Part shown: piece after piece, positions 34,609 through 64,000 of the stretch
Layout of the letters: each line of letters opens with the position of its first letter
Position numbering within the stretch: the stretch's first letter is position 1
NCBI RefSeq assembly: GCF_000003815.2
Contig: NC_049981.1
Coordinates: forward strand, 19,641,065-19,705,064
From: Branchiostoma floridae
Lineage: Eukaryota; Chordata; Leptocardii; Amphioxiformes; Branchiostomatidae
DNA length: 64,000 bases
Direction: 5' to 3'
Notes under the pieces: model-generated
The model's input: only the letters and a program-made list of their open reading frames with translations
Databases searched by the model: none
Told to the model about the DNA's origin: nothing
Position numbers and translations under genes: made by a program

Positions 34609-35728
34609 CCTATTGGGGGCCAAGTGTTGCAAAATTAAACGTATACATAGAACGAATTTTCTCTCACACAGAAGGGTTGAAAAAGGTCTCACACACAGAC
34701 AGATTTTTCTCTCTCACACAACAGTGGAAAAAGGTCGCACACATTGACAGATTTTTCTCTCTCACACAACCGTTAGAAAAGGTCGCACACATCGACAGAT
34801 TTTTCTCTCCCACTCCAAAGTTGAAAAACTTCGCACACAGTCACAGATTTTCAAAAGGTGATTTTTTTACCATGTGTTGTCCTATATCATTCTTCACAAA
34901 TGTTATAAATGCAAGCATATACAGGCGGTTTCTCGGTTCAACATGTACTTTATTCGTCAATATAGAGGCTATTATATTGTTTTAGTGAATACCGTGACCG
35001 GTATTCAAATCCATTTCTATTTCAGCATTAATGATACAATGGCCAGTATGAATTTGACTTTTGACCTGTTATATAGCTTATATGATTTGCCTTTTTCCCA
35101 TAGAGACATGTATTTGAAATATACCGTAGCTTGAATGTCCCATAGATTCATAGAATGTACGCACACATGTCATATAAGTTGTCCTTCACCGACTCAAACT
35201 TGCACGCTCGATATCTTTCTAAGATACTAAGATTTCCGATCGTTCGTGCAGTCATACATAATATCTGTAAAAACAAATATTATCCAAAAACTGAGGCTGA
35301 ATTTTTTTTTCACATACACAGCAAGAAGTTTCTGCAAGTCAGTCACCCATGGTAAGAAAGCTTAAGGTGGAAAAAAATCCGTCCCTGAAGAGAACTGTTT
35401 AAAAGATCCTTGTTCGGATGTATAAGTACGACGACTTTAAAGTTTTGGGGGTTGATTGCATTCTTCACATAGTGCAGACACCACGAGAATATGTCGCGTC
35501 AACAAATGTGCAATTTTTTGTCTCAAACAATTGCAGAAATCAACTCTCAAACACATATCGAATTATTCCTTCCAAAGACAAACTATTCTTTGATACTGCA
35601 GACATTTTTATTCCGACACACAAACACTAGAATTCTCTCTCACACACAGCACAAAAAGTTCTCTCACTTCGCGAGGCTTTCCCTGCCAACCCGGCTGTAG
35701 GAGTGAGCGATTTTTTCGTCTGAGTGAG
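34609..35728. repeat. Array leader, copy 1
   Basis: A segment of about 1.12 kb, nearly identical to 38428-39539 with a few substitutions and short indels. It begins with CCTATTGGGGGCC, carries a 48-bp tandem repeat, then about 750 bp of non-repeated AT-rich DNA, and ends inside the first array unit. It codes for no protein I can support. Confidence 0.9.
34656..34858. repeat. 48-bp tandem repeat in leader copy 1 (about four units)
   Basis: Each unit is two related halves of about 24 bp. One reads TCTCACACAACNGTT and then GAAAAAGG; the other reads TCGCACACATCGACAG and then ATTTTTCTC. Read as protein it gives a 16-residue repeat with HIDRFFSLTQ, but the array units show that the motif is a DNA repeat. 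Confidence 0.9.
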
Positions 35729-37262
35729 AGCGAAATTTGGTCGATGTGAGAGCGCTTTCGGAGTAGTGGAAGAATAACTTGCTTGAGTTTTCTGAACTTC
35801 CAAATGGCAATGAACAGTGTTATTTTCTTCAGTTTCCAATAATAAACCATTTTAACAATGACATTCTGTTATGTTATAGACATTTCCTCGACAATCACTT
35901 TATTCCGACACACAACGCAGAAATTCTCTCTCACCCACAGAACAAAAAGTTCTTTCACCTCGGGGGCTTTCCCCGCCAACCCGGCTGTAGGAGTGAGCGA
36001 TTTATTTTGGTCTGAGTGAGAGCGAAATTTGGTCGATGTGAGAGCGCCTTTGGAGTAGTGGAAGAATAACTTGCTTGAGTTTTCTTATCTTCTTAAAGGC
36101 AATGAACAGCGCCATTTTCTTCAGTTTCCAATAATAAACCTTTTCAAAAATGACATTCTGTTATATTATAGACATTTCCTCGACAATCATATCATTCCGA
36201 CACACAACGCAGAATTTCTCTCTCACCCACGGAACAAAAAGTTCTCTCACCTCGGAAGCTTTCCCCGCCGATCAGGCTGGAGGAGTAAGCGATTTTTTTG
36301 GTCTGAGTGAGAGCGAAATTTGGTCGATGTGAGAGCGCCTTTGGAGTAGTGGAAGAATAACTTGCTTGAGTTTTCTTATCTTCTTAAAGGCAATGAACAG
36401 CGTCATTTTCTTGTTTCCACTAATAAACCTTTTTAACAATGACATTCTGTTATATTATAGACATTTCCTCGACAGTCATATTATTCCGACACACAACGCT
36501 GAAATTCTCTCTCACCCACAGAACAAAAAGTTCTCTCACTCCGCGAGGCTTCCCCTACCAACCCGGCTGGAGGAGTGAGCGATTACTTTGGTCTGAGTGA
36601 GAGCGAAACTTTGTCGATGTGAGAGCGCTTTCGGAGTAGTAAAAGAATAACTTTCTTGAGTTTTCTTAACTTCTAAAGGGGAATGAACAGTGTCATTTTC
36701 TTCAGTTTCCAATAATAAACCATTTTAACAATGACATTCTGTTATATTATAGACATTTCCTCGACAATCACTTTATTCCGACACACAACGCAGAAATTCT
36801 CTCTCACCCACAGAACAAAAAGTTCTTTCACCTCGGGGGCTTTCCCCGCCGATCTGGCTGGAGGAGTGAGCGATTTATTTTGGTCTGAGTGAGAGCGAAA
36901 TTTGGTCGATGTGAGAGCGCTTTCGGAGTAGTGGAAGAATAACTTGGTTCAGTTTTCTTATCTTCATAAAGACAATGAACAGCGTCATTTTCTTCAGTTT
37001 CCAATAATAAACCTTTTCAAAAATGACATTCTGTTATATTATAGACATTTCCTCGACAATCATATCATTTCCGACACACAACGCAGAAATTCTCTCTCAC
37101 CCACGGAACAAAAAGTTCTCTCACCTCGGAGGCTTTCCCCGCCGATCTGGCTGGAGGAGTGAGCGATTTTTTTGGTCTGAGTGAGAGCGAAATATGGTCG
37201 ATGTGAGAGCGCTTTCGGAGTAGTGGAAGAATAACTTCTTTCAATTTGGGAGCACGGTACGC
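35608..37262. repeat. Tandem array, subtype A (about six units of 289-293 bp)
   Basis: Units start at a CGACACACAACGC word (examples 35907, 36199 and 36488). They carry TTCTCTCTCAC, AACAAAAAGTTCT, GGAGTGAGCGA and GATGTGAGAGCGC. Subtype A has GAGTGAGAGCGAAATTTGG in the right arm and a spacer with TCAGTTTCCAATAATAAACC. It is bounded on the right by a gap. Confidence 0.95.
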
Positions 37263-37486
37263 NNNNNNNNNNNNNNNNNNNNNNNNNNNNNNNNNNNNNN
37301 NNNNNNNNNNNNNNNNNNNNNNNNNNNNNNNNNNNNNNNNNNNNNNNNNNNNNNNNNNNNNNNNNNNNNNNNNNNNNNNNNNNNNNNNNNNNNNNNNNNN
37401 NNNNNNNNNNNNNNNNNNNNNNNNNNNNNNNNNNNNNNNNNNNNNNNNNNNNNNNNNNNNNNNNNNNNNNNNNNNNNNNNNNNNNN
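37263..37486. other. Assembly gap (224 N) at the subtype A/B boundary
   Basis: Run of N. The unit type differs on its two sides. Confidence 0.99.
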
Positions 37487-38375
37487 TCGATGTGAGAGCG
37501 CTTCGGAATAGTGCAAGAACAACTTCCTTCATCATTTCTTTACTTCAAACGCATGTTAAACACTGACATTTTGTATAGTTTGAAACGATATACATCATAC
37601 ACTAACAATCACTTAAACCAAAGACATTGTCTTGACGATCAATCTTTTTCCGACACTCAACGCTAAAATTCTCTCTCACACACAGAACAAAAAGTTCTCT
37701 CACTTCGGGAGGCTTTCCCTGCAAACCCGGATGGAGGAGTGAGCGATTTTTTGGTCTGAGTGAGTGCGAACTTTTGTCGATGTGAGAGCGCTTTTGGAGT
37801 AGTGAAAGAACAACTTCTTTTAGTATTTTTACTTAAAACCCAAAATAAACGCAGACATTTTGTTTAGTTTGTAACGATATACACTATACAATACCAATCA
37901 CTTATACCAAATATTAAAGATATTGTCTTGACAATCAATCTTTTTCCGACACACAACGCTGAAATTCTCTCTCACCCACAGAACAAAAAGTTCTCTCACT
38001 TCGGGAGGCTTCCCTGCCAACGCGGCTGTAGGAGTGAGCGCTTTTTTTGGTCTGAGTGAGTGCGAACTTTTGTCGATGTGAGAGCGCTTTTGGAGTAGTG
38101 AAAGAATAACTTCTTTTAGTATTTTTTACTTAAAACCCAAAATAAACGCTGACATTTTGTTTAGTTTGTAACGATATACACCATACAATAACAATCACTT
38201 ATACCAAATACTAAAGATATTGTCTTGACAATCAATCTTTCTCCGACACACAACGCTGAAATTCTCTCTCACCCACAGAACAAAAAGTTCTCTCACTCCG
38301 GGAGGCTTCCCTGCCAACGCGGCTGTAGGAGTGAGCGATTTTTTGGGTCTGAGTGAGTGCGAACTTTGTCGAGGA
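37487..38375. repeat. Tandem array, subtype B (about three units)
   Basis: Units of about 297 bp with GAGTGAGTGCGAACTTTTG in the right arm and a spacer with TAACGATATACACNATACAA and ATTGTCTTGACAAT. The block ends at a 34-N gap. Confidence 0.95.
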
Positions 38376-38409
38376 NNNNNNNNNNNNNNNNNNNNNNNNN
38401 NNNNNNNNN
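38376..38409. other. Assembly gap (34 N)
   Basis: Run of N directly before leader copy 2; it marks a contig join. Confidence 0.99.
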
Positions 38410-38427
38410 AAGACGTTTCCGGGGGTA

Positions 38428-39539
38428 CCTATTGGGGGCCAAGTGTTGCAAAATTAAACGTATACATAGAACGAATTTTCTCTCACACAGAAGGGTTGAA
38501 AAAGGTCTCACACACAGACAGATTTTTCTCTCTCACACAACAGTGGAAAAAGGTCGCACACATTGACAGATTTTTCTCTCTCACACAACCGTTAGAAAAG
38601 GTCGCACACATCGACAGATTTTTCTCTCCCACTCCAAAGTTGAAAAACTTCGCACACAGTCACAGATTTTCAAAAGGTGATTTTTTACCATGTGTTGTCC
38701 TATATCATTCTTCACAAATGTTATAAATGCAAGCATATACAGACGGTTTCTCGGTTCAACATGTACTTTATTCTTCAATATAGAGGCTATTATATTCTTT
38801 AAGTGAATACCGTGACCGTTATTCAAATCCATTTCTATTTCAGCATTAATGATACAATGGCCAGCATGACTTTGACTTTTGACCTGTTATATAGTTTATA
38901 TGATTTGCCCTTTTCCCATAGAGACATGTATTTGAAATATACCGTAGCTGGAATGTCTCTGGATTCATAGAATGCACGCACACATGTCATATAAGTTGTC
39001 CTTCACCGACTCAAACTTGCACGCTCGATATCTTTCTTAGATTCTCTTTCCGATCGTTCGTGCAGTCATACATAATATCTGTCAAAACAAATATTATCCA
39101 AAACTGAGGCTGATTTTTTTTCACATACACAGCAAGAAGTTTCTGCAAGTCAGACCCCCATGGTAAGAAAGCTTAAGGTGGAAAAAAATCCGTCCCTGAA
39201 GAGAACTGTTTAAAAGATCCTTGTTCGGATGTATAAGTACGGCGACTTTAAAGTTTTGGGGGTTGATTGCATTCTTCACATAGTGCAGACACCACGAGAA
39301 TATGGCGCGTCAACAAATGTGCAATTTTTTGTCTCAAACACACTCAGAAATCAACTCTCAAACACATATCGAATTATTCTTTCCAAAGACAAACAATTCT
39401 TTGATACAGCAGACATTTTTATTCCGACACACAAACACTAGAATTCTCTCTCACACACAGCACAAAAAGTTCTCTCACTTCGGGAGGCTTTCCCTGCCAA
39501 CCCGGCTGTAGGAGTGAGCGATTTTTTCGTCTGAGTGAG
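38428..39539. repeat. Array leader, copy 2
   Basis: Near-identical to 34609-35728. The match stops within the first array unit at the GTCTGAGTGAG word; copy 1 continues with subtype A and copy 2 with subtype B. Confidence 0.9.
38475..38678. repeat. 48-bp tandem repeat in leader copy 2
   Basis: Same four units as at 34656-34858, almost without change. Confidence 0.9.
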
Positions 39540-42500
39540 TGCGAACTTTTGTCGATGTGAGACCGCTTTTGGAGTAGTGAAAGGACAACTTCTTTTAGTA
39601 TTTTTTACTTAAAACTAAAAATAAACACTGACATTTTGTCTAGTTTGTAACGATATACACTATACAATAACAATCACTTATACCAAATACTAAAAATATT
39701 GTCTTGACAATCAATCTTTTTCCGACACACAACGCTGAAATTCTCTCTCACACACAGAACAAAAAGTTCTCTCACCTCGGGAGGCTTCCCTGCCAACCCG
39801 GCTGTAGGAGTGAGCGATTTTTTGGGTCTGTGTGAGTGCGAACTTTTGTCGATGTGAGAGCGCTTTTGGAGTAGTGAAAGAACAACTTCTTTTAGTATTT
39901 TTTACTAAAAACGCAAAATAAACACTGGCATTTTGTTCAGTTTCCAACGATATACACTATACAACACCAATCACTTATACTAAATATTAAAGATATTGTC
40001 TTGACAATCAATCTTTTTCCGACACACAACGCTAAAATTCTCTCTCACACACAGAACAAAAAGTTCTCTCACTTCGGGAGGCTTCCCTTCCAACCCGGCT
40101 GTAGGAGTGAGCGCTTTTTTTGGTCTGAGTGAGTGCGAACTTTTGTCGATGTGAGAGCGCTTTTGGAGTAGTGAAAGAACAACTTCTTTTAGTATTTTTT
40201 ACTAAAAACGCAAAATAATCACTGGCATTTTTTTCAGTTTGTAACGATATACACTATACAATAACAATCACTTATACCAAATATTAAAGATATTGTTTTG
40301 ACAATCAATCTTTTTCCGACACACAACGCTAAAATTCTCTCTCACACACAGAACAAAAAGTTCTCTCACTTCGGGAGGCTTCCCTGCCAACCCGGCTGTA
40401 GGAGTGAGCGCTTTTTGGGGTCTGAGTGAGTGCGAACTTTTGTCGATGTGAGATCGCTTTTGGAGTAGTAAAAGAACAACTTCTTTTAGTATTTTTTACT
40501 AAAAACGCAAAATAATCACTGTCATTTTTTTCAGTTTGTAACGATATACACTATACAATAACAATCACTTATACCAAATATTAAAGATATTGTCTTGACA
40601 ATCAATCTTTTTCCGACACACAACGCTAAAATTCTCTCTCACCCACAGAACAAAAAGCTCTCTCACTTCGGGAGGCTTCCCTGCCAACGGGGCTGTAGGA
40701 GTGAGCGCTTTTTGGGGTCTGAGTGAGTGCGAACTTTTGTCGATGTGAGAGCGCTTTCGGGGTAGTGAAAAAACAACTTCTTTTAGTATTTTTTTACTTA
40801 AAACTCAAAATAAACACTGACATTTTGTCTTGTTTGTAACGATATACACTATACAATAACAATCACTTATACCAAATATTAAAGATATTGTTTTGACAAT
40901 CAATCTTTTTCGACACACAATGCTAAAATTCTCTCTCACACACAGAACAAAAAGTTCTCTCACTTCGGGAGGCTTCCATACCAACCCGGCTGTAGGAGTG
41001 AGCGCTTTTTGGGGTCTGTGTGAGTGCGAACTTTTGTCGATGTGAGAGCGCTTTTGGAGTAGTGAAAGAACAACTTCTTTTAGTATTTTTTACTAAAAAC
41101 GCAAAATAATCACTGGCATTTTTTCAGTTTGTAACGATATACACTATACAATAACAATCACTTATACCAAATATTAAAGATATTGTTTTGACAATCAATC
41201 TTTTTCCGACACACAACGCCAAAATTCTCTCTCACACACAGAACAAAAAGTTCTCTCACTTCGGGAGGCTTCCTTGCCAAGCCGGCTGTAGGAGTGAGCG
41301 CTTTTTTTGGTCTGAGTGAGTGCGAACTTTTGTCGATGTGAGAGCGCTTTTGGAGTAGTGAAAGAACAACTTCTTTTAGTATTTTTTACTAAAAACGCAA
41401 AATAATCACTGTCATTTTTTTCAGTTTGTAACGATATACACTATACAATAACAATCACTTATACCAAATATTACAGATATTGTTTTGACAATCAATCTTT
41501 CTCCGACACACAACGCTAAAATTCTCTCTCACACACAGAACAAAAAGTTCTCTCACTTCGGGAGGCTTCCCTTCCAACCCGGCTGTAGGAGTGAGCGCTT
41601 TTTTTGGTCTGAGTGAGTGCGAACTTTTGTCGATGTGAGAGCGCTTTGGAGTAGTGAAAGAACAACTTCTTTTAGTATTTTTTACTAAAAACGCAAAATA
41701 AACACTGGCATTTTTTTCAGTTTGTAACGATATACACTATACAATAACAATCACTTATACCAAATATTAAAGATATTGTTTTGACAATCAATCTTTTTCC
41801 GACACACAACGCTAAAATTCTCTCTCACCCACAGAACAAAAAGTTCTCTCACTTCGGGAGGCTTCCCTGCCAACCCGGCTGTAGGAGTGAGCGCTTTTTG
41901 GGGTCTGAGTGAGTGCGAACTTTTGTCGATGTGAGAGCGCTTTTGGAGTAGTGAAAGAACAACTTCATTTAGTATTTTTTACTTAAAACGCAAAATAAAC
42001 GCTGACATTTTGTTCAGTTTGAAACGATATACACTATACAATACCAATCACTTATACCAAATATTAAAGATATTGTCTTGACAATCAATCTTTTTCCGAC
42101 ACACAACACTGAAATTCTCTCTCACACACAGAACAAAATGTTCTCTCACCTCGGGAGGCTTCCCTGCCAACCCGGCTGTAGGAGTGAGCGATTTTTTGGG
42201 TCTGAGTGAGTGCGAACTTTTGTCGATGTGAGAGCGCTTTTGGAGTAGTGAAAGATCAACTTCTTTTAGTATTTTTTACTTAAAACGCAAAATAAACGCT
42301 GACATTTTGTTCAGTATGTAACGAGATATACCATTTAATATCAATCACTTATACCAAATATTAAAGATATTGTCTTGACAATCAATCTTTTTCCGACACA
42401 CAACGCTGAAATTCTCTCTCACACACAGAACAAAATGTTCTCTCACCTCGGGAGGCTTCCCTGCCAACCCGGCTGTTGGAGTGAGCGATTTTTTGGGTCT

Positions 42501-43498
42501 GTGTGAGTGCGAACTTTTGTCGATGTGAGAGCGCTTTTGGAGTAGTGAAAGAACAACTTCTTTTAGTATTTTTTACTAAAAACGCAAAATAAACACTGGC
42601 ATTTTGTTCAGTTTGTAACGATATACACCTTTCAATACCAATAACTTATACCAAATATTAAAGATAGTATCTTGACAATCAATCTTTATCCGACACACAA
42701 CGCTGAAATTCTCTCTCACAAACAGAACAAAAAGTTCTCTCACTTCGGGAGGCTTCCCTGCCAACGCGGCTGTAGGAGTGAGCGATTTTTGGGGTTTGAG
42801 TGAGTGCGATATTTTGTCGATGTGAGAGCGCTTTTGGAGTAGTGAAAGAACAACTTCTTTTAGTATTTTTTACTTAAAACGCAAAATAAACGGAGACATT
42901 TTGTTCAGTTTGAAACGATATACACTATACAATACCAATCACTTATACCAAATATTAAAGATATTGTCTTGACAATCAATCTTTTTCCGACACACAACAC
43001 TGAAATTCTCTCTCACACACAGAACAAAATGTTCTCTCACCTCGGGAGGCTTCCCTGCCAACCCGGCTGTAGGAGTGAGCGATTTTTTGGGGTCTGAGTG
43101 AGTGCGAACTTGTGTCGATGTGAGAGCGCTTTTGGAGTAGTGAAAGATCAACTTCGTTTAGTATGTTGTATTTAAAACGCAATATTTACGCTGACATTTT
43201 GTTCAGTTATGTAACGATATATACCATTTAATATCAATCACTTATACCCAATATTAAAGATATCGTCTTGACAATCAATCTTTTTTCCGACACACAACGC
43301 TGAAATTCTCTCTCACACACAGAACAAAAAGTTCTCTCACCTCGGGAGGCTTCCCTGCCAACCCGGCTGTAGGAGTGAGCGATTTTTTGGGTCTGTGTGA
43401 GTGCGAACTTTTGTCGATGTGAGAGCGCTTTTGGAGTAGTGAAAGAACAACTTCTTTTAGTATTTTTTACTAAAAACGCAAAATAAACACTGGCATTT
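39419..43498. repeat. Tandem array, subtype B, main block (about 14 units of 297 bp)
   Basis: The most regular part of the array (unit starts near 40021, 40318 and 40615). Each unit has left-arm CTCTCTCACACACAGAAC and AAAAAGTTCTCTCAC, a GC-rich centre CGGGAGGCTTCCCTGCC, and right arm GGAGTGAGCG, GAGTGAGTGCGAACTTTTG and TCGATGTGAGAGCGC. The right arm is the imperfect reverse complement of the left. The AT-rich spacer has the small palindromes TTTTAGTA/TACTAAAA (not in all units) and ATTGTCTTGACAAT. Confidence 0.96.
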
Positions 43499-43644
43499 NN
43501 NNNNNNNNNNNNNNNNNNNNNNNNNNNNNNNNNNNNNNNNNNNNNNNNNNNNNNNNNNNNNNNNNNNNNNNNNNNNNNNNNNNNNNNNNNNNNNNNNNNN
43601 NNNNNNNNNNNNNNNNNNNNNNNNNNNNNNNNNNNNNNNNNNNN
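43499..43644. other. Assembly gap (146 N) inside the array
   Basis: Run of N. Confidence 0.99.
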
Positions 43645-46600
43645 GGCTTTCCCTGCCACCCGGCTGGAGGAGTGAGCGATTTTTTGGGTATGAGTGAGTG
43701 CGAACTTTTGTCGATGTGAGAGCGCTTTTGGAGTAGTGAAAGATCAACTTCTTTTAGTTTATTTTACTTAAAACGCAAAATAAACACTGGCATTTTGTTC
43801 AGTTCGTAACGTTATACACCATTCAATACCAATAACTTATACGAAATATTAAAGATATTGTCTGGACACTTAATCTTTATCCAACACAACGCTGAAATTC
43901 TCTCTCACACACAGAACAAAAAGTTCTCTCACTTCGAGAGGCTCCCTACCAACCCGGCTGTAGGAGTGAGTGATTTTTGGGTCTGTGTGAGTGCGAACTT
44001 TTGTCGATGTGAGAGCGCTTTTGGAGTAGTGAAAGATCAACTTCTTTTAGTATTTTTTACTTAAAACGCAAAATAAACGCTGACATTTTGTTCAGTATGT
44101 AACGATATATACCATTTAATATCAATCACTTATACCAAATATTAAAGATATTGTCTTGACAATCAATCTTTTTCCGACACACAACGCTAAAATTCTCTCT
44201 CACCCACAGAACAAAAAGTTCTCTCACTTCGGGAGGCTTCCCTGCCAACGCGGCTGTAGGAGTGAGCGATTTTTGGGGTTTGAGTGAGTGCGAACTTTTT
44301 ACGATGTGAGAGCGCTTTTGGAGTAGTGAAAGAGCAACTTCTTTTAGTATATTTTACTTGAAACGCAAAATAAACGCATACATTTTGTTTACTTTGTAAT
44401 GATATACACTATACAATACCAATCACTTATACCAAATATTAAAGATATTGTCTTGACAATCAATCTTTTTCCGACACACATCGCTATAATACTCTCTCAG
44501 ACACAGAACAAAAAGTTCTCTCACTTCGGGAGGCTTCCCTGCCAACGCGGCTGTAGGAGTGAGCGATTTTTTGGGTCTTAGTGAGTGCGAACTTTTGTCG
44601 ATGTGAGAGCGCTTTTGGAGTAGTGAAAGAACATCTTTTATTAGTATATTTTACTTAAAACGCAAAATAAACGCAGATATTTTGTTTACTTTGTAACGAT
44701 ATACACTACAAAACCGATCACTTATACCAAATATTAAAGATATTGTCTTGACAATCAATCTTTTTCCGACACACATCGCTATAATACTCTCTCACACACA
44801 GAACAAAAAGTTCTCTCACCTCCGGAGGCTTCCCTGCCAACGCGGCTGTAGGAGTGAGCGATTTTTTTGGTCTGAGTGAGTGCGAACTTTTGTCGATGTG
44901 AGAGCGCTTTCGGAATAGTGAAAGAATAAATTCCTTCAGTATTTTTTTCACTTTAAACGCAAAATAAACGCAGACATTTTGTTTAGTTTGTAACGATATA
45001 CACTATACAATACTAATCACTTATACCAAATATTAAAGATATTGTCTTGACAATCAATCTTTTTCCGACACACAACGCTGAAATTCTCTCTCACACACAA
45101 AACAAAAAGTTCTCTCACTTCGGGAGGCTTCCCTGCCAACGCGGCTGTAGGAGTGAGCGATTTTTTGGGTTTGAGTGAGTGCGAACTTTTTACGATGTGA
45201 GAGCGTTGTCGAATAGTGAAAGAATAAATTCCTTCAGTATTTTTTAAACTTTAAACGCAAAATAAACGCTGACATTTTGTTAAGTTTGTAACGATATACA
45301 ATATACAATACTAATCACTTATACCAAATATTAAAGATATTGTCTTGACAATCAATCTTTTTCCGACACACAACGCTGAAATTCTCTCTCACACACAAAA
45401 CAAAAAGTTCTCTCACTTCGGGAGGCTTCCCTGCCAACGCGGCTGTAGGAGTGAGCGATTTTTGGGGTTTGAGTGAGTGCGAACTTTTTTCGATGTGAGA
45501 GCGCTTTTGAAGTAGTGAAAGAACAACTTCTTTTAATATTTTTTACTTAAAACTCAAAATAAACGCAGACATTTTGTTTAGTTTGTAATGATATACACTA
45601 TACAATACCAATCACACCAAATATTAAAGATATTGTCTTGACAATCAATCTTTTTCCGACACACAACGCTAAAATTCTCTCTCACACACAGAACAAAAAG
45701 TTCTCTCATTTCGGGAACTTCCCTGCCAACCCGGCTGTAGGAGTGAGCGATTTTTTGGGTATGAGTGATTGCGAACTTTTTACGATGTGAGAGCGCTTTT
45801 GGAGTAGTGAAAGAACAACTTCTTTTAGTATTATTTACTTAAAACGCAAAATAAACGCAGACATTTTGTTCAGTTTGTAACGATATACACTACAAAACCG
45901 ATCTCTTATACCAAATATTAAAGATATTGTCTTGACAATCAATCTTTTTCCGACACACTTCGCTATGATACTCTCTCACACACAGAACAAAAAGTTCTCT
46001 CACTTCGGGAGGCTCCCTGCCAACCCGGCTGTAGGAGTGAGCGATTTTTTTGGTGTGGGATGAAGTGCGAACTGTTTACGATGTGAGAGCGCTTTTGGAG
46101 TAGTGAAAGAACAACTTCTTTTAGTATTTTTTACTTAAAACGCAAAATAAAGACTGACATTTTGTTGAGTATGTAACGATATACACCATTTAATATCAAT
46201 CACTTATACCAAATATTAAAGATATTGTCTTGACAATCAATCTTTTCCGACACATAACGCTGGAATTCTCTCTCACACACAGAACAAAAAGTTCTCTCAC
46301 TTCGGGAGGCTTGCCTGCCAACGCGGCTGTAGGAGTGAGCGATTTTTTTGGGTCTGAGTGAGTGCGAACTTTTGTCGATGTGAGAGCGCTTTCGGAATAG
46401 TGAAAGAATAAATTCCTTCAGTATTTTTTTCACTTTAAACGCAAAATAAACGCTGACATTCTGTTCAGTTTGTAACGATATGCACTATACAATACTAATC
46501 ACTTATACCAAATATTAAAGATATTGTCTTGACAATCAATCTTTTTCCGACACACAACGCTGAAATTCTCTCTCACACACAGAACAAAAAGTTCTCTCAC

Positions 46601-47302
46601 CTCGGGAGGCTTCCCTGCCAACGGGGCTGTAGCAGTGAGCGATTTTTTGGGTCTGAGTGAGAGCGAAAATTCGTCGATGTGAGAGCGCTTTTGGAGTAGT
46701 GAAAGAATAGCTTCCTGGAGGTTTATTAACTTTAGACTCAAATCAACAACTGACATTCTGTACAATTTGAAACAATATACATCATACAATAACGATGACT
46801 TATACCAAAGATAATGTCTTGACAATTAATCTTTTTCAGACACTCAACGATAAAATTCTCTCTCACACACAGAACAAAAAGTTCTCTCGCTTCGGGAGGC
46901 TTTCCCTGCCAACCCGACCGTAGGAGTGAGCGATTTTTTGGGTCTGAGTGAGAGAGAAATTTGGTCGATGTGAGAGCGCTTTCGGAAGAGTGAAAGAATA
47001 GCTTTTTTCAGTATTTTTTTCACTTCAAACGCCAATTAAACACTGACATCTTGTTTACTTTGTTACGATATACACTATATAATACAATCATTCATTCCAT
47101 AGATATGGTTTTGACAATCAATCTTTTTCCGACACTCAACGCTAAAATTCTCTCTCACACACAGAACCAAAAGGTCTCTCACTTCGGGAGGCTTCCCCGC
47201 CAATTTGGCTGTAGGAGTGAGCGATTTTTTTGGTCTGAGTGAGTGCGAACTTTGGTCGATGTGAGAGCGCTTTCGGAGTACTAGTAGTGAAAGAAGAAAT
47301 TC
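43645..47302. repeat. Tandem array, subtype B, diverged block (about 12 units)
   Basis: Same unit with more point changes, such as ATCGCTATAATAC for AACGCTAAAATTC and spacer variants with CCTTCAGTATTTTTTTCAC. Divergence rises toward the right end, as expected where recombination homogenises an array less. Confidence 0.94.
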
Positions 47303-47970
47303 CTTGTGGCCAGAGTAGTCGACGTGGTGATGTTGATATGTTGTGATGTTGAGATGTTGGAATCTTGGAATGAACGGACCTGTTCAATCCATGCGAATCA
47401 GGTTGATACCTGTTAAAACCAGTACATATGTCCCACTAGCGCAGTGGGAAAGTTTGCGCATAGAAAACCAATGCACCGGGTTCAAATCCGGAGAGGGAAT
47501 TTTTTTAACTGTATTTTTTTCCTTTTTTTACATGCATTGAAATACTAATTTTTACATCATTAAAATACTAATTAACAATACTTTTGTATAGAACATTAAA
47601 ACTCACAATTGCACCTGTTCTACTTCTGCATTATTTCGCTGTTGGGATGTTTGAATGAGCTAACTGTGAGACGTGCGTTACTCTGCATATATGTCGTTCT
47701 AACTTTCCATAAAATGCCCATACAACATCTATATCACAAGAATAAACTGATTTTCTCGAAAATAACTGCATACTGTATGACAAAAAGTTTCACTAAACAT
47801 ATTTATTTTCATATTTCTGGACATAAAGTAATTTGCATATTTGTGAATCTCTCAATGTGAGCATATCAGGTTTAGTTACTCTGTTCTATTTATATGACAT
47901 TCTAATAACTACAAAAAAACGTTCACACACGCAAACCTTGGCAAAATGCCAGCTTTTTAAAAGCACTTGT
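47303..47970. mobile_element. Insertion of about 0.67 kb inside an array unit
   Basis: The unit breaks after GAAGAAATTCCTT and resumes at TTTTTTACTTCAAACGC. The inserted DNA has no array motif, holds a tRNA-like sequence and an AT-rich tail, and encodes no protein I can support. Its exact ends and any target duplication are unclear. Confidence 0.6.
47431..47498 (+). tRNA. tRNA-like sequence, probably a tRNA pseudogene or SINE head
   Basis: An A-box-like TAGCGCAGTGGG (47437) and a B box GGTTCAAATCC (47479-47489) have the spacing of a tRNA promoter. Six of seven bases of TCCCACT pair with AGAGGGA at the 3' end, and GCGC words form a D stem. The anticodon and T stems have mismatches and no clear anticodon is seen, so a functional tRNA is unlikely. 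Confidence 0.4.
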
Positions 47971-49397
47971 TTTTTTACTTCAAACGCAAAATAAACTCTG
48001 ACATTTTGTTCAATTTGAAACAATATACACCATACAATAACAACCACTCATTCCAAAGATATTGTTTTGACAATCAATCTTTTTCCGACACACAACGCTG
48101 ACATTCTCTACCACCCACACAGAAAAAGTTCTGTCACTTCGGGAGACTTTCTCTGCCAACCCAGCTCTAGGAGTGAGCGAATTTTTTGTCTGAGTGAGAG
48201 AGAAAATTCGTCGATTTAAGAGTGCTTTTGGAGTAGTGAAAGAATAACTTCCTGGAGGTTTATTACCTTAAAATGCAAAATAAACACTGGCATTCTGTAC
48301 AGTTTGAAACGATATACATCATACAAAAACGATGACTTATACCAAAGATAATGTCTTGACAATCAATCTTTTCCCGACACACAACGCTAAAATTCTCTCT
48401 CACACACAGAACAAAAAGTTCTCTCACTTCGGGAGGCTTCCCTGCCAACGCGGCTGTAGGTGTGAGCGATTTTTTTGGTCTGAGTGAGTGCGAACTTTTG
48501 TCGATGTGAGAGCGCTTTCCGAGTAGTGAAAGAACAACTTCAATTAGTATTTTTTACTAAAAACGGAAAATAAACACTGGCATTTTGTTTACTTTGTAAC
48601 GATATTCACCATACAATACCAATCACTTATACCAAATATTAAAGATATTGTCTTCACAATCAATCTTTTTTCCGACACACTACGCTAACATTCTCTCTCA
48701 CACACAGAACAAAAAGTTCTCTCACTTCGGGAGGCTTCCCCTGCCAACCCGACTGTAGGAGTGAGCGATTTTGTGGTATGAGTGAGTGCGAACTTTTGTC
48801 GATGTGAGAGCACTTTCGGAGTAGTGAAAGAACAACTTCTTTTAGTATTTTTTACTTAAAACTCAAAATAAACACTGACATTTTGTTCAGTTTTTAACGA
48901 TATACACCATACAATAACAATCACTTATACCAAATATTAAAGATATTGTCTTGACATTCAATCTTTTTCTCGACATACAACGCTGAAATTCTCTCTCACA
49001 CACAGAACAGTTCTCTCACCTCGGGGCTTTCCCCGCAGATCAGGCTGGAGGAGTGAGTGATTTTTTTTCGTCTGAGTGAGAGCGACATTTTGTCGATGTG
49101 AGAGCGCTGTCGGAATAGTGGAAGAATAACTTGCTTGAGTTTTCGTAACTTCCAAATGGCAATGAACATTTTTCTTCACTTAAAACAGGAAGTAAACAGT
49201 GTCACTTTCTTCAGTTTCCAATGATAAAACTTTTTAACAATGACATTCTGTTACATTATAGACGTTGCCTCAAAAGTTATATTTTACAAATATATTGTCT
49301 TGGCAATCAATATTTTTCCGACACACCACTCTGAAAAACAACGCTAAAATTATCTCTCACACACAGAACAAAAAGTTCTCTCACTTTCGGGACTTCC
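47971..49397. repeat. Tandem array, continuation after the insertion (about five units)
   Basis: Degenerate subtype B units, with a subtype-A-like unit (CAGTTTCCAATGATAAAAC) near 49200, so the two subtypes mix here. Confidence 0.93.
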
Positions 49398-49609
49398 NNN
49401 NNNNNNNNNNNNNNNNNNNNNNNNNNNNNNNNNNNNNNNNNNNNNNNNNNNNNNNNNNNNNNNNNNNNNNNNNNNNNNNNNNNNNNNNNNNNNNNNNNNN
49501 NNNNNNNNNNNNNNNNNNNNNNNNNNNNNNNNNNNNNNNNNNNNNNNNNNNNNNNNNNNNNNNNNNNNNNNNNNNNNNNNNNNNNNNNNNNNNNNNNNNN
49601 NNNNNNNNN
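49398..49609. other. Assembly gap (212 N) inside the array
   Basis: Run of N. Confidence 0.99.
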
Positions 49610-49867
49610 TTGACAATTTATCTTATTCTGACACACAACACTGAAATTCTCTCTCACCCACAGAACAAAAGCTCTCTCACTTCGGGAGGCTTCCCTGCCA
49701 ACCCGGCTGTAGGAGTGAGCGATTTTTTGGTCCGGGTGAGAGAGAAATTTTGTAGATGTGAGAGGGCTTTCGGAGTAGAGGAAGAACAACTCCCTTGAGC
49801 TTTATTCACTTCAAACGCAAAATAAACCTGACATTTTCTTCAGTTTGTAACGATATGCATCATACAA
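49610..49867. repeat. Array unit interrupted by an element
   Basis: One unit, broken after CATACAA by the element at 49868. Confidence 0.85.
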
Positions 49868-50495
49868 CTAGAGTTCCACGACCCCATACCTTCGCCAAAT
49901 GATTCAATCTTTTACAACTGGTGTATCAAATGTGATTATTATTAATTATGCAAATAAGGTTGTCATTTGCATAAGTCATATTTCTTGATCATGTCCTCTA
50001 CCAAACAACAGACGCACGCAATCTATGTTAAGAAAGAAGGCGTTATCGCATATTCTGATAATCTATGCAAATGAGGACCTCATTTGCATACTTTATGTTC
50101 AACGATGTTCACCTGTACATAACTTCAAAATGCTACAAGTAAGAAGTTCATTTACCACCATGACATTACAGCATTTTCTAATTGATCGTGCAATTTAGGT
50201 CTCTAAACCTGTCCTGCAGTCCCAAAACAAGTCGCTAGGGGCCCCAAACATATACCACTTACTCTCGGCATCAAGAGCTGTCTACCACTCAAAAATCAAA
50301 CCCAGAGGTTCCACTGCAGGACCGTTACAGGCTTATGGGGGCCCAAAATGTAATCCTTTCCAGGTATCAAGACCTACCCACATACTAAATATGAAAGAAA
50401 ATCCATCCAGGCGTTCTCGAGGTTTGCTGGTCTTCTACATACAAACATACAAACGTACGCTACCCAAAACATAATCTTTTTTGGCCAAGGTAATA
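49868..50495. mobile_element. Interspersed element, copy 2, inserted in an array unit
   Basis: Starts CTAGAGTTCCACGACC, then ACCTTCGCCA, and ends with inverted GGCCAAGGTAATAA, matching the ends of 30690-32046. It is shorter because it has fewer inner modules. The array unit resumes directly with AATCACTTAT, so the element arrived after the array formed. Confidence 0.65.
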
Positions 50496-50990
50496 ATAAT
50501 CACTTATATCAAGACACTGTCTTGAAAATCCACATTTTTCCGACACAAAAAGCATCGCCCTTTGGCAACGATATACATCATACAACACCAATCACATATA
50601 CCCAAGACATTGTCTTGACAATCTATATTTTTCGGACACACAATGCGGACATTCTCTCTCACCCACAGAACAAAACGTTCTCTCACTTCGGAAGGCTGGA
50701 ATTCATGCCAACGCGGCTTTAGGAGCGAGCAAATTTTTCTGTTTGGGTGAGAGAGAAATTTGGCCGATGTGAGAGCGCTTTCGGAGTAGTGGCAGAACAA
50801 CTTTCTTGAGGGTTTTTCATTTCAAACGGACAATGAACAGTGTCATTTTCTTCTCTTTGCAACAATATACATCATACAATAATAATCACTTGTAATTATA
50901 CCGAAGACATTGTCTTGACAATTTATATTTTTCCGACACACAACACTGAAATTCTTTCTCATCCACAGAACAAAAAATGCTCACACTTCC
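50496..50990. repeat. Last two degenerate array units
   Basis: Recognisable CGACACACAA, TTCTCTCTCACCCACAGAAC and GATGTGAGAGCGC words. The second unit breaks off in the left arm near 50990. Confidence 0.85.
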
Positions 50991-51975
50991 GCAATTGTTG
51001 CAAAATTATATAAAAGTCGGGCGCGAGAAGAAACCGTGGGAGAGAAAAAAAAAACATAGAGATATGAAATATCGTGCGAGAGAGGTAATAAAGGTGGAGA
51101 GGTAGGAAATACCGTGCGGGAGAGAAAATAAAACCATAGAGAGCTAGGAAATATCGTGCGAGAGAGAGAGAATAAAGGTCGAGAGCTAGGAAATATCTTA
51201 CAGTGTACAGTGAAGGAATATTTTACGCGAGACTTAGTAAAAGGTTGTAGTGAGGAAATAATCTGCGAGACAGGAAATGAAAGTGTAGAGAGTAAATATC
51301 GTATGTGAGAGGAAATGAAAGTTGGGAGATAAGAATTATCGTAGAGGGAAAAATAATAGTGAAGGGAAAGAAAATATCGTACGAAAAAGACAACAAAATT
51401 ATACCGAGGGAATATCATACTAGTCACGAAAAAAAAGTATAGAGAGAGGAAACAGCCTACGATGAATATCTTACGGGAGAGGAAATGAAGGCCTCTTCAA
51501 GGAAAGTACGAGAAAGAAAATATAAGTGTTCAGAGAGAATAGGTACGATACTTTGTCCGTCTTTACTTTAATTTATTTCCTCTTTCTTTCAACTTTTATT
51601 TTCTCTGTCGTGCGATATTTTCTATCTCTTCACTAATATTTCTTTCTCGCACGATCTTTCCTAAGAGAGAGGAAATATCGTACAAGAGAGGAAATAAAAG
51701 TGGAGAGAGAGGAGATGTCAGACGCGAGAGGAAATAAACGTAGAGACAATCGCACGAGAGAGGAAATAAAAGTGGAGCGATAGAAAATATCTTACGAGAG
51801 AAGAATTCAAGAAAAGTAGCTTACGCGAGAGAAAATGAAAGTATAGAGAAAGGAAATATACGTATGGGGGAGGAAAGTAAAGCGCTCAGATACAAAATAT
51901 CTTACGCGAGAGGATATAAAAGGATGGGGGAAGAGGAAGTATTTTAAGAGAGAGAAAATAAAGGGTATTGCATAA
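50990..51975. repeat. Purine-rich degenerate minisatellite with a strand switch
   Basis: Irregular repeats of about 35-45 bp with GAGAGGAAATATCGTRCGAG and AAATAAAAGTGGAGAG words, almost all purine on the plus strand. Between about 51542 and 51663 the motif is inverted (TTTATTTCCTC, CGTGCGATATTTTC) and then returns. Long frames on the minus strand here are by-products of the composition. Confidence 0.8.
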
Positions 51976-62649: not shown

Positions 62650-64000
62650 ATATAAAATGTTTAGGGAATTTCCATCAAACATCCTTGAGTTATATTTGTA
62701 CTGTTCCTGTGATAACTTTTTCTGTTTACAGTGAAGTGACTGCATTCTGGCCATCCCAGCTGCAGTGCCCCCCTCCCACACACTGGCAGCTCGGAAGAAG
62801 TGATGCAGCACACAGTCACAGGTGAGAATGGTTTTTATTTTGTTTTGTTTCTAGTTAAGATGAAGATGATGTTTTGTTGTTTACAAGTACTGTTCCTGTG
62901 ATAACTTTTACTGTTCATCTGTTTACAGTGAAGTGACTGCATTCTGGCCATCCCAGCTATAGTGCCCCCCTCCCACACACTGGCAGCTCGGAAGAAGTGA
63001 TGCAGCACACAATCACAGGTGAGAATGGTTTTTATTTTGTTTTGTTTCTTGTTAAGATGAAGATGATATTTTGTTGTTTACAAGTACTGTTCCTGTGATA
63101 ACTTTTTCTGTTTACAGTGAAGTGACTGCATTCTGGCCATCCCAGCTGCAGTGCCCCCCTCCCACACACTGGCAGCTCGGAAGAAGTGATGCAGCACACA
63201 GTCACAGGTGAGAATGGTTTTTATTTTGTTTTGTTTCTAGTTAAGATGAAGATGATGTTTTGTTGTTTACAAGTACTGTTCCTGTGATAACTTTTTCTGT
63301 TTACAGTGAAGTGACTGCATTCTGGCCATCCCAGCTGCAGTGCCCCCCTCCCACACACTGGCAGCTCGGAAGAAGTGATGCAGCACACAGTCACAGGTGA
63401 GAATGGTTTTTATTTTGTTTTGTTTCTAGTTAAGATGAAGATGATGTTTTGTTGTTTACAAATACTGTTCCTGTGATAACTTTTACTGTTCATCTGTTTA
63501 CAGTGAAGTGACTGCATTCTGGCCATCCCAGCTATAGTGCCCCCCTCCCACACACTGGCAGCTCGGAAGAAGTGATGCAGCAGACAATCACAGGTGAGAA
63601 TGTTTTTTTATTTTGTTTTGTTTCTAGTTAAGATGAAGATGATGTTTTGTTGTTTACAAGTACTGTTCCTGTGATAACTTTTACTGTTCATCTGTTTACA
63701 GTGAAGTGACTGCATTCTGGCCATCCCAGCTATAGTGCCCCCCTCCCACACACTGGCAGCTCGGAAGAAGTGATGCAGCAGACAATCACAGGTGAGAATG
63801 TTTTTTTATTTTGTCATTGTTTCTAGTTAAGATGAAGATGATGTTTTGTAGTTTACAAGTACTGTTCCTGTGATAACTTTTACTGTTCATCTGTTTACAG
63901 TGAAATGACTGCATTCTGGCCATCCCAGCTGCAGTGCCCCGTCCACACACTGGCAGGAAGACGACGGGATGATTAGGAATTGTGATTTGAATTTTCAAAT
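62650..64000 (+). repeat. Tandem array of an exon-like block, seven copies, period 189-199 bp
   Basis: Each unit has a branch/pyrimidine stretch and GTTTACAG, a 90-bp block, then GTGAGAATG. Block starts are 62732, 62929, 63118, 63307, 63504, 63702 and 63901; the seventh block diverges after about 40 bp. Two unit types occur: short (TTTTTCTGTTTACAG with CAGCTGCAGTG in the block; copies 1, 3 and 4) and long (ACTGTTCATCTGTTTACAG with CAGCTATAGTG; copies 2, 5 and 6). Copy 7 has a long-type intron and a CTGCAG block. Confidence 0.9.
62732..62821 (+). other. Exon-like block 1 of 7 in the tandem array
   Basis: Flanked by TTTTTCTGTTTACAG and CAG/GTGAGA. If two bases come from upstream, the frame is open (EVTAFWPSQLQCPPPTHWQL and on). 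From candidate exon 5, which ends in phase 0, the first codon is TGA, making this the stop codon and start of a 3' untranslated exon. In copies 2, 5 and 6 the open frame is broken by TAG. Confidence 0.5.

Follow-up and report, generated by a model that had tools for sequence, protein, structure and literature searches.

A palindromic unit array in Branchiostoma floridae is part of the long, repeat-built ends of a recently mobile DNA transposon family

The unit array in the window

The 64,000-nucleotide stretch of the Branchiostoma floridae genome analysed here (the window) carries an array of tandem units at 35608..50991, with 47 matches and full copies of about 297 bp. With a single unit as query, 47 matches on the plus strand were obtained between 35608 and 50989, with identities of 79-100% and some of them partial, and most adjoining units were spaced by 290-301 bp. 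The profile search likewise recovered 47 matches on the plus strand, the last ending at 50991, together with 21 weak minus-strand matches, which arise because the unit is palindromic. All array units share one orientation, and 34 of them are full length and without N. Tandem Repeats Finder reported between 3.0 and 32.6 copies at periods of 292-298 bp, so the original prediction of about 45 units of roughly 295 bp holds.

Outside the units, the first part, on the plus strand, is an outer tip, L1 (34611..34857), which opens with TATTGGGGGCCAAGTG and passes into a 48-bp minisatellite, whose [TG]C[TG]CAC sites lie 51, 76, 101, 124, 149, 172 and 220 bases inward of the tip. Next comes the outer flank domain of the terminal inverted repeat (TIR) at 34858..35607, identified by a genome search in which it had at least 42 matches with 93-100% identity, except for one fragment at 90%. 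Unit search and unit typing place outer ('type 1') units at 35608..37262; the five full ones correspond to units 1-5 of the right arm at C3:17.2 Mb with 99.3-100% identity. Behind an assembly gap (37263..37486) arm L1 continues with inner units, those of 'type 8' (37487..38375), and behind another gap (38376..38409) comes a second outer tip with flank domain, L2 (38430..39418), 97.2% identical to L1. The units of arm L2, mostly of the inner type, run on the plus strand from 39419 to 47305 with an N gap at 43499-43644. They are followed by an insert (47306..47970), a portion of which is also found in other arms of the family, further plus-strand units (47971..49397), a gap (49398..49609), a partial unit (49610..49868), another insert (~49869-50561) and the last, more diverged units at the inner end of the array (50562..50991). 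The array had been taken as a single large one, but it is broken by these N gaps and inserts and by the non-unit block of about 1 kb at 38430-39418, which is a copy of 34611-35607. Three of the listed open frames of at least 150 aa lie inside the array and every one of them runs across N.

Element plan and spread through the genome

The 28-bp tip has 76 matches genome-wide at up to three mismatches, 46 of them exact, on 19 contigs, and the reversed control gave 0. The tip termini read TA...TA. For 26 of the 32 right tips a facing left tip lies within 50 kb, and the median separation of the 26 facing pairs is 16 kb. The tips lead into the same unit array, which is inverted at the opposite end; in seven elements the facing arms measure about 3.7-8.2 kb, gaps counted, and contain the identical kind of unit. 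The plan of the element is a 28-bp tip, the 48-bp minisatellite, a flank domain of about 750 bp, 297-bp units arranged by type and a variable centre, after which everything is mirrored. The outer-to-inner order of type 1, type 7 and type 8 is present in both arms of five of the seven two-ended elements (C5a, C3a, C16, C15 and C1b). At C1:27.5 Mb, C4:19.2 Mb and C5:6.3 Mb the units stand in scrambled order; at C3:27.1 Mb the right arm begins with type 8. Unit number would vary through unequal exchange or copying slips, chiefly in the inner array.

Target-site duplications (TSDs) are clear at 16 of 25 paired loci (eight of 7 bp, eight of 6 bp and none of 8 bp) and three more lie in poly-C, while among 650 wrong pairings used as a control 6-bp matches occurred 7 times and 7-bp matches 6 times. 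No TSD was found at the window locus with either left tip, nor at five further paired loci, one of which is cut off by N after 6 bases. The flanking 7-mers are GC-rich (71% GC over 26 flanks). Compared with GTNNNAC, these 26 flanks had a mean of 1.65 matches against 1.00 when shuffled (0/5000); this pattern was picked post hoc, before the 6-bp TSDs were recognised, and the test pools both lengths, so we retain the GC-richness alone. With long tandem-repeat TIRs, TSDs and dispersed mobile copies all observed, the family belongs to the structural class of foldback-type DNA transposons.

Among the C5, C3, C1 and (turned) C16 copies, left ends share 98.5-99.7% identity; right ends share 99.6-99.8% among the C5, C3 and C1 copies and L1 of the window, and units 1-6 of the left arm in the C5 copy recur in C1, C3 and C16 in the same order (98.3-100%). 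Since siblings on four different chromosomes carry corresponding outer units in corresponding order, with mostly 98-100% identity, the family moved recently. The array in the window belongs to the very long termini, built of repeats, of this recently mobile family, and is no free-standing satellite or RNA gene; almost certainly it forms one side of a foldback element, with two left arms in succession. The earlier suggestion of a 'satellite of a transposon' came close; more precisely, the units form the body of the transposon's TIRs. One recent local amplification, which had been put forward as a contrary explanation, fails to account for the array, as the unit has 490 matches genome-wide over many contigs.

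How far the window's own arrangement is genuine is an evenly balanced question, as the 45-unit array may in part be an assembly product in which two elements, or parts of them, were scaffolded head to tail. N gaps lie close to L1 and L2, the two left tips are separated by 3.8 kb, both of their flanks fail to match the right flank, and the locus spans 43 kb against the median of 16 kb. Elsewhere, the left flank at C6:17.52 Mb equals the right flank at C5:6.3 Mb, and the same relation holds between C1:27.48 Mb and contig C307. However, L1 and L2 differ both in sequence (97.2% identity) and in their first unit types and are therefore not simple duplicates, and the locus may be a real nested or rearranged one. 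The reality of the foldback family is independent of the window locus. Its inverted arms of 4-8 kb on many chromosomes are natural sites of ectopic exchange and of assembly errors.

The unit palindrome and its readings

The palindrome in the unit is real but weak. Where two arms of about 45 bp had been proposed, the best close arm pair at one unit is 35 nt long with 71% complementarity and a separation of 28 nt, and the DNA fold of this same unit, the one tested, had a z of -1.77 against shuffles, 7 of 200 of which were equally good. The RNA fold of the consensus core of subfamily A reached -50.1 against -42.9 +/- 3.9 in 200 shuffles, about 1.8 SD better. A distant subfamily (B, about 30% diverged) has TIRs built from a related 141-bp palindrome; the two subfamilies have the facing-block core in common, and a spacer of about 140 bp sets them apart.

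It is unlikely that the repeated hairpin serves as an RNA source, with transcripts through the units or through whole inverted arms being diced or made into piRNAs. The palindrome within the unit and the inversion at the scale of the element would suit such a source, and the subfamily B unit folds far better than its shuffles (-71.7 vs -32.0 +/- 4.0). When 55 pairs of A were placed on B, 29 were unchanged, 5 changed on both sides and held, 3 changed on one side, 9 were broken and 9 gapped; for 54 pairs of B placed on A the respective numbers were 30, 4, 4, 12 and 4. The A core, however, folds only about 1.8 SD better than its shuffles, and pairing is unprotected among 313 subfamily A units. 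Over the 46 pairs of the consensus hairpin (14,242 cells in all), only 15 cells are altered on both sides with the pair intact, whereas 505 are changed one-sidedly and 1,260 break the pair, and control structures slid by 1-3 columns scored 23-75 two-sided pair-keeping cells. This near-absence of pair-preserving covariation argues against an RNA hairpin in subfamily A, and the unit alignment adds no support to the small-RNA source proposed in the original prediction. The Rfam search of the window gave zero matches.

Satellite DNA that was dispersed without transposition and has a role in chromatin or at centromeres would fit the 490 matches, the variable copy number and the conversion of Tetris TIR units into free satellites (PMC4079207). 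It is highly improbable, since among the roughly 150 listed matches all 22 unit clusters have a transposon tip within 18.2 kb and 36 of 44 cluster ends have one within 6 kb, and the arms form facing pairs flanked by 6-7-bp duplications; the same clusters speak against any satellite independent of a mobile element.

Candidate binding sites, transposase search and known systems

The motif [TG]C[TG]CAC is common to units and tips of the transposon, with 108-167 sites per element and a density of 11.4-14.4 per kb, compared with 0-2 per kb in the flanks. The C15 element contains 108 sites and the element at C13:15.1 Mb 259, where first-order Markov shuffles give 12.7 +/- 3.6 and 28.3 +/- 4.9, respectively; in subfamily B the motif is sparser (36 vs 14.0 +/- 3.8 shuffled). 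Near the tip the sites stand in direct order, and within each unit they form facing blocks of two and three. Mean conservation of the unit is 0.935 over the motif-bearing positions 1-160, 0.835 over 161-240 and about 0.91 over the last 56. Because any motif within a tandem repeat is copied along with it, a high count by itself is no proof of function. We infer from sequence and analogy that these are putative transposase-binding sites; the THAP domain of Galileo has a binding site about 70 bp away from the tip and further ones within the TIR tandem repeats (PMC3688188), and this tip-proximal and internal binding counts, by analogy, for the proposal. A transposase from elsewhere, or from a copy with an unassembled centre, would cut and paste the element, and the repeated motif would be its binding site. 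Each unit palindrome would be two facing groups of such sites, and the long arms would collect many transposase molecules, helping tips that lie kilobases apart to pair.

As the palindrome is kept in a subfamily that is about 30% diverged, the stress originally laid on it may yet prove right. A more far-reaching model, which we offer tentatively and consider rather doubtful, is that the palindromic unit is a functional module, whose paired facing platforms load transposase along the 4-8 kb arm, with selection on the platform, not drift, making and keeping the satellite; the transposase could come from a superfamily not described so far, with TA..TA ends and GC-rich targets of 6-7 bp.

We found no transposase in the element family, but three of its youngest copies have an assembly gap for a centre; N-filled centres lie at C5:24.26 Mb, C3:17.22 Mb and C16:18.16 Mb. 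The stretch separating the two arms is nearly all N in three siblings (3,006 of 3,007, 4,500 of 4,507 and 2,514 of 2,516 bases), so a transposase could be hidden there. Two related elements read through by eye contained no transposase-like frame, and neither did the centre frames inspected. Ten window frames, four of them to the right of the array, had no Pfam family above the cut-off and two matches below it. The genome has three loci of P-type transposase (PF21787), but no family tip was found within 10 kb around two of them or 3.2 kb around the third, which speaks against this enzyme as the mobiliser, although the test could miss copies with unassembled centres and diverged tips. A pair of tips 31 kb apart on C2 has a perfect 7-bp duplication and may therefore be one element; that it is an autonomous copy gained no support from the 11 kb of its middle that were inspected (partly N), which showed no transposase-like frame by eye. 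The same 11 kb hold a different repeat, based on ACACATATATGTGT-like palindromes.

In the titles and abstracts retrieved from the literature on lancelet transposons and foldback or inverted-repeat elements, and in passages of lancelet papers, no description of the family was found. IS3EU, compared by termini and TSD alone, has TA..TA termini, which the lancelet tips fit, and a TSD of usually 6 bp (PMC10045372), seen in eight of our 16 clear cases, the other eight having 7 bp. Dada has the same TSD length of 6-7 bp, but no TIRs were found in its U6 and U1 families, which target small-RNA genes (PMC3706591), whereas the lancelet element carries kilobase TIRs and is accordingly not assigned to Dada.

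The closest known systems are Tetris and Galileo of Drosophila. Tetris, a foldback element of Drosophila virilis, has an outer flank domain of up to 866 bp, TIRs with a variable number of tandem repeats of about 220 bp inside, and a variable non-coding middle, with no autonomous partner found (PMC4079207), and the lancelet family resembles it in all these respects. It differs in its TSD (6-7 bp vs 8-10 bp), arm length (about 3.7-8.2 kb vs TIRs of up to 1,735 bp) and number of copies (26 facing pairs vs three structurally complete copies; PMC4079207), and, unlike in Tetris, no expanded free satellite is seen among the unit matches listed. A foldback of the Mutator type, as proposed for Tetris, needs a TSD of 8-10 bp and does not fit. 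Galileo, of the P superfamily, shares the long TIRs with internal tandem repeats, which in Galileo hold extra transposase-binding sites, and many of its copies are reduced to TIRs (PMC3688188, PMC4168063, PMC3573991). Its TSD is 7 bp, with some of 8 bp, compared with 7 bp in half of our 16 clear cases, 6 bp in the other half and 8 bp in none; the Galileo consensus GTATTAC is AT-rich, whereas the lancelet flanks are GC-rich. Galileo has a known P-type transposase, while none is linked to the lancelet element, and the longest reported TIRs of D. willistoni Galileo, from a single copy, are 4.2-4.7 kb, against lancelet arms of up to about 8.2 kb. A recently mobile foldback family with satellite-array ends is thus now found outside flies, and the order of its unit types can be traced from copy to copy, which makes two questions testable: whether satellite units in ends of this kind act as transposase-binding platforms, and how transposons give rise to satellite DNA.

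The unit array and the element plan

Searching the window (C3:19641065-19705064) with a single unit gave 47 matches on the plus strand, the first starting at 35608 and the last ending at 50989, and a profile search of the window also returned 47 unit matches; 34 units are full-length and free of N. The array is interrupted by four N gaps, two inserts and a non-unit block at 38430-39418, which repeats 34611-35607. The original prediction of one array of about 45 units agrees with these matches as to the units, but the single array did not hold up: there are two left arms with two tips at this locus, and the 45 units are therefore those of both arms. A right tip is situated outside the window at C3:19722849, N making up at least 10.9 kb of the interval. 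No target-site duplication (TSD) was found when the flank of this right tip was compared with both left tips. The window locus is composite or misassembled.

One insert (window 47406-47775) looks like a tRNA-derived SINE and recurs inside the arms of several elements (loci C15, C4, C1a, C1b and C5b). Directly to the right of the unit array, at 51010-51970, lies an array of another kind, with a high content of GAGAG / CTCTCGCAC and periods of about 40-42 and 80 bp, in which no tip of the foldback family was found. A 189-bp tandem repeat (6.4 copies, about 95%) occupies 62721-63956.

The identity of the unit array was solved by its surroundings. In the 513,431,437-base assembly (431 contigs), facing pairs of unit arrays are found at many sites. 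Ten loci were fetched beyond the window; within the fetched stretch, seven had both ends (C5:24.26, C3:17.22, C16:18.16, C13:20.78, C15:6.44, C3:27.10 and C1:34.67 Mb), two had one outer end and one had neither. All seven both-end elements follow one plan: a sharp tip reading TATTGGGGGCCAAGTGTTGCAAAATTAA, a 48-bp minisatellite, a flank domain of ~750 bp, 297-bp units and a centre, followed by the same in reverse. The element is a further foldback transposon, with long satellite-built arms. The tip, searched with up to three mismatches, had 76 matches genome-wide versus 0 in the reversed control; a facing left tip was present within 50 kb of 26 of the 32 right tips (median distance 16.3 kb), leaving 6 right and 16 left tips unpaired. 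The flank domain had at least 42 matches with 93-100% identity, except for one 90% fragment (69 candidates, 40 scored).

Insertion sites, subfamilies and age

Flanks were compared at 25 of the 26 paired loci, the window being one of them; the 26th has N at the left tip. We found a TSD of 7 bp at eight loci and of 6 bp at eight, poly-C at three and none at six, one of which is cut by N after 6 bases. Wrong partners, used as a control in 650 combinations, matched seven times at 6 bp and six times at 7 bp. The left flank C6:17520093 is identical to the right flank C5:6325531, and the left flank C1:27475436 to the right flank C307:23552 (CCCATCG and AGGGTAC); such identity could come from copies exchanging sequence, from alleles represented by unplaced contigs or from an assembly error.

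The tips form subfamilies A (46 exact tips), B and C. Mixed A and C tips occur at two loci, with a perfect 7-bp TSD at one and poly-C at the other, and a 20.5 kb C element (C13:15.13 Mb) has 297-bp arrays resembling those of A. One B element, at C4:31.5 Mb (5,976 bp, no N), has arms made of a 141-bp unit in 8.0 and 14.1 copies. Its tip and minisatellite are common with the family (in most comparisons, 75-79% across about 200 bp). Over 85 columns its unit aligns at 69% with the 297-bp unit's core, no match to the other half being reported. The palindrome of the A unit, though real, is modest (35 nt, 71% complementarity, folding ~1.8 SD better than shuffles); that of the B unit is strong (-71.7 vs -32.0 +/- 4.0 in shuffles). 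The palindromic unit is kept across subfamilies. The 141-bp arrays of the 5,976-bp B element are traversed by open frames (396 and 444 aa), which probably reflects no more than the divisibility of 141 by three. At C2:13792500-13803499, between two B-type tips 31 kb apart with a perfect 7-bp TSD, lies a different repeat (about 23 and 46-47 bp), made of ACACATATATGTGT-like palindromes.

Sequence classes of the 297-bp units run inward as type 1, type 7 and many type 8 in both arms of five of the seven elements; C13:20.78 and C3:27.10 Mb follow this order in part, and it is scrambled in C1:27.5, C4:19.2 and C5:6.3 Mb. Mutual identity is 98.5-99.7% among the left ends of C5, C3, C1 and the turned C16 copy, and 99.6-99.8% among the right ends of C5, C3 and C1 together with the end of the first left arm of the window (tip from 34611). 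Pairings across the two groups mostly score lower (97.7-99.1%), and against the right-end group the second end of C16 has 97.2-98.7%. The first six units of the C5 left arm match C1, C3 and C16 in the same order (98.3-100%); further in, identity falls to 94-99% and strict order is lost. Identity between the first left arm of the window and units 1-5 in the right arm of C3:17.2 Mb is 99.3-100%. As ends and outer units of separate copies are near-identical and in matching order, we read these similarities as recent movement of the family. Mean identity of ends was 97.9% within one element (seven elements) and hardly lower, 97.4%, between elements, a result that speaks against strong arm-to-arm conversion.

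Palindrome symmetry, transposase and the repeated motif

Among 14,242 pair cells in 313 units, two-sided changes keeping the pair were seen in 15, one-sided changes in 505 and broken pairs in 1,260. With the partner slid by 1-3 columns, two-sided cells numbered 23-75; the A units thus show no sign of selection on pairing. Transferred to B, the 55 A pairs were unchanged in 29 cases, two-sided in 5, one-sided in 3, broken in 9 and at gaps in 9; the 54 B pairs on A gave 30, 4, 4, 12 and 4, respectively. The symmetry is old, but facing binding blocks would account for it just as well as an RNA.

No transposase was found among the centre frames that were inspected by eye, or by a Pfam search of the window frames. 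A gene could be hidden, since three sibling copies have almost nothing but N between their arms, and three others of the seven have N there in part or nearly throughout. In one centre (about C4:19229112-19229741, minus strand), a 210-aa frame resembles, by eye, the final part of a LINE reverse transcriptase. Three P-type genes are present in the genome, with no family tips nearby; P-type RNase H domain genes at C19:10.31 Mb (767-aa frame) and C11:17.08 Mb (678-aa frame) are without family tips. Judged by TSD length and TA..TA ends, the superfamily could be IS3EU, Dada-like, P-like or an undescribed one.

The motif [TG]C[TG]CAC lies 51, 76, 101, 124, 149, 172 and 220 bases inward from the tip, and the unit consensus has two copies on one strand and three on the opposite one. 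Each of the seven elements contains 108-167 motifs (11.4-14.4 per kb vs 0-2 per kb in the flanks), and same-strand neighbours are mostly 18-26 bp apart. Conservation of the unit is highest in the motif-bearing part (0.935), compared with 0.835 for positions 161-240 and about 0.91 for the final 56. We infer that the motifs are putative transposase-binding sites, on the model of Galileo, for which such sites have been shown (PMC3688188).
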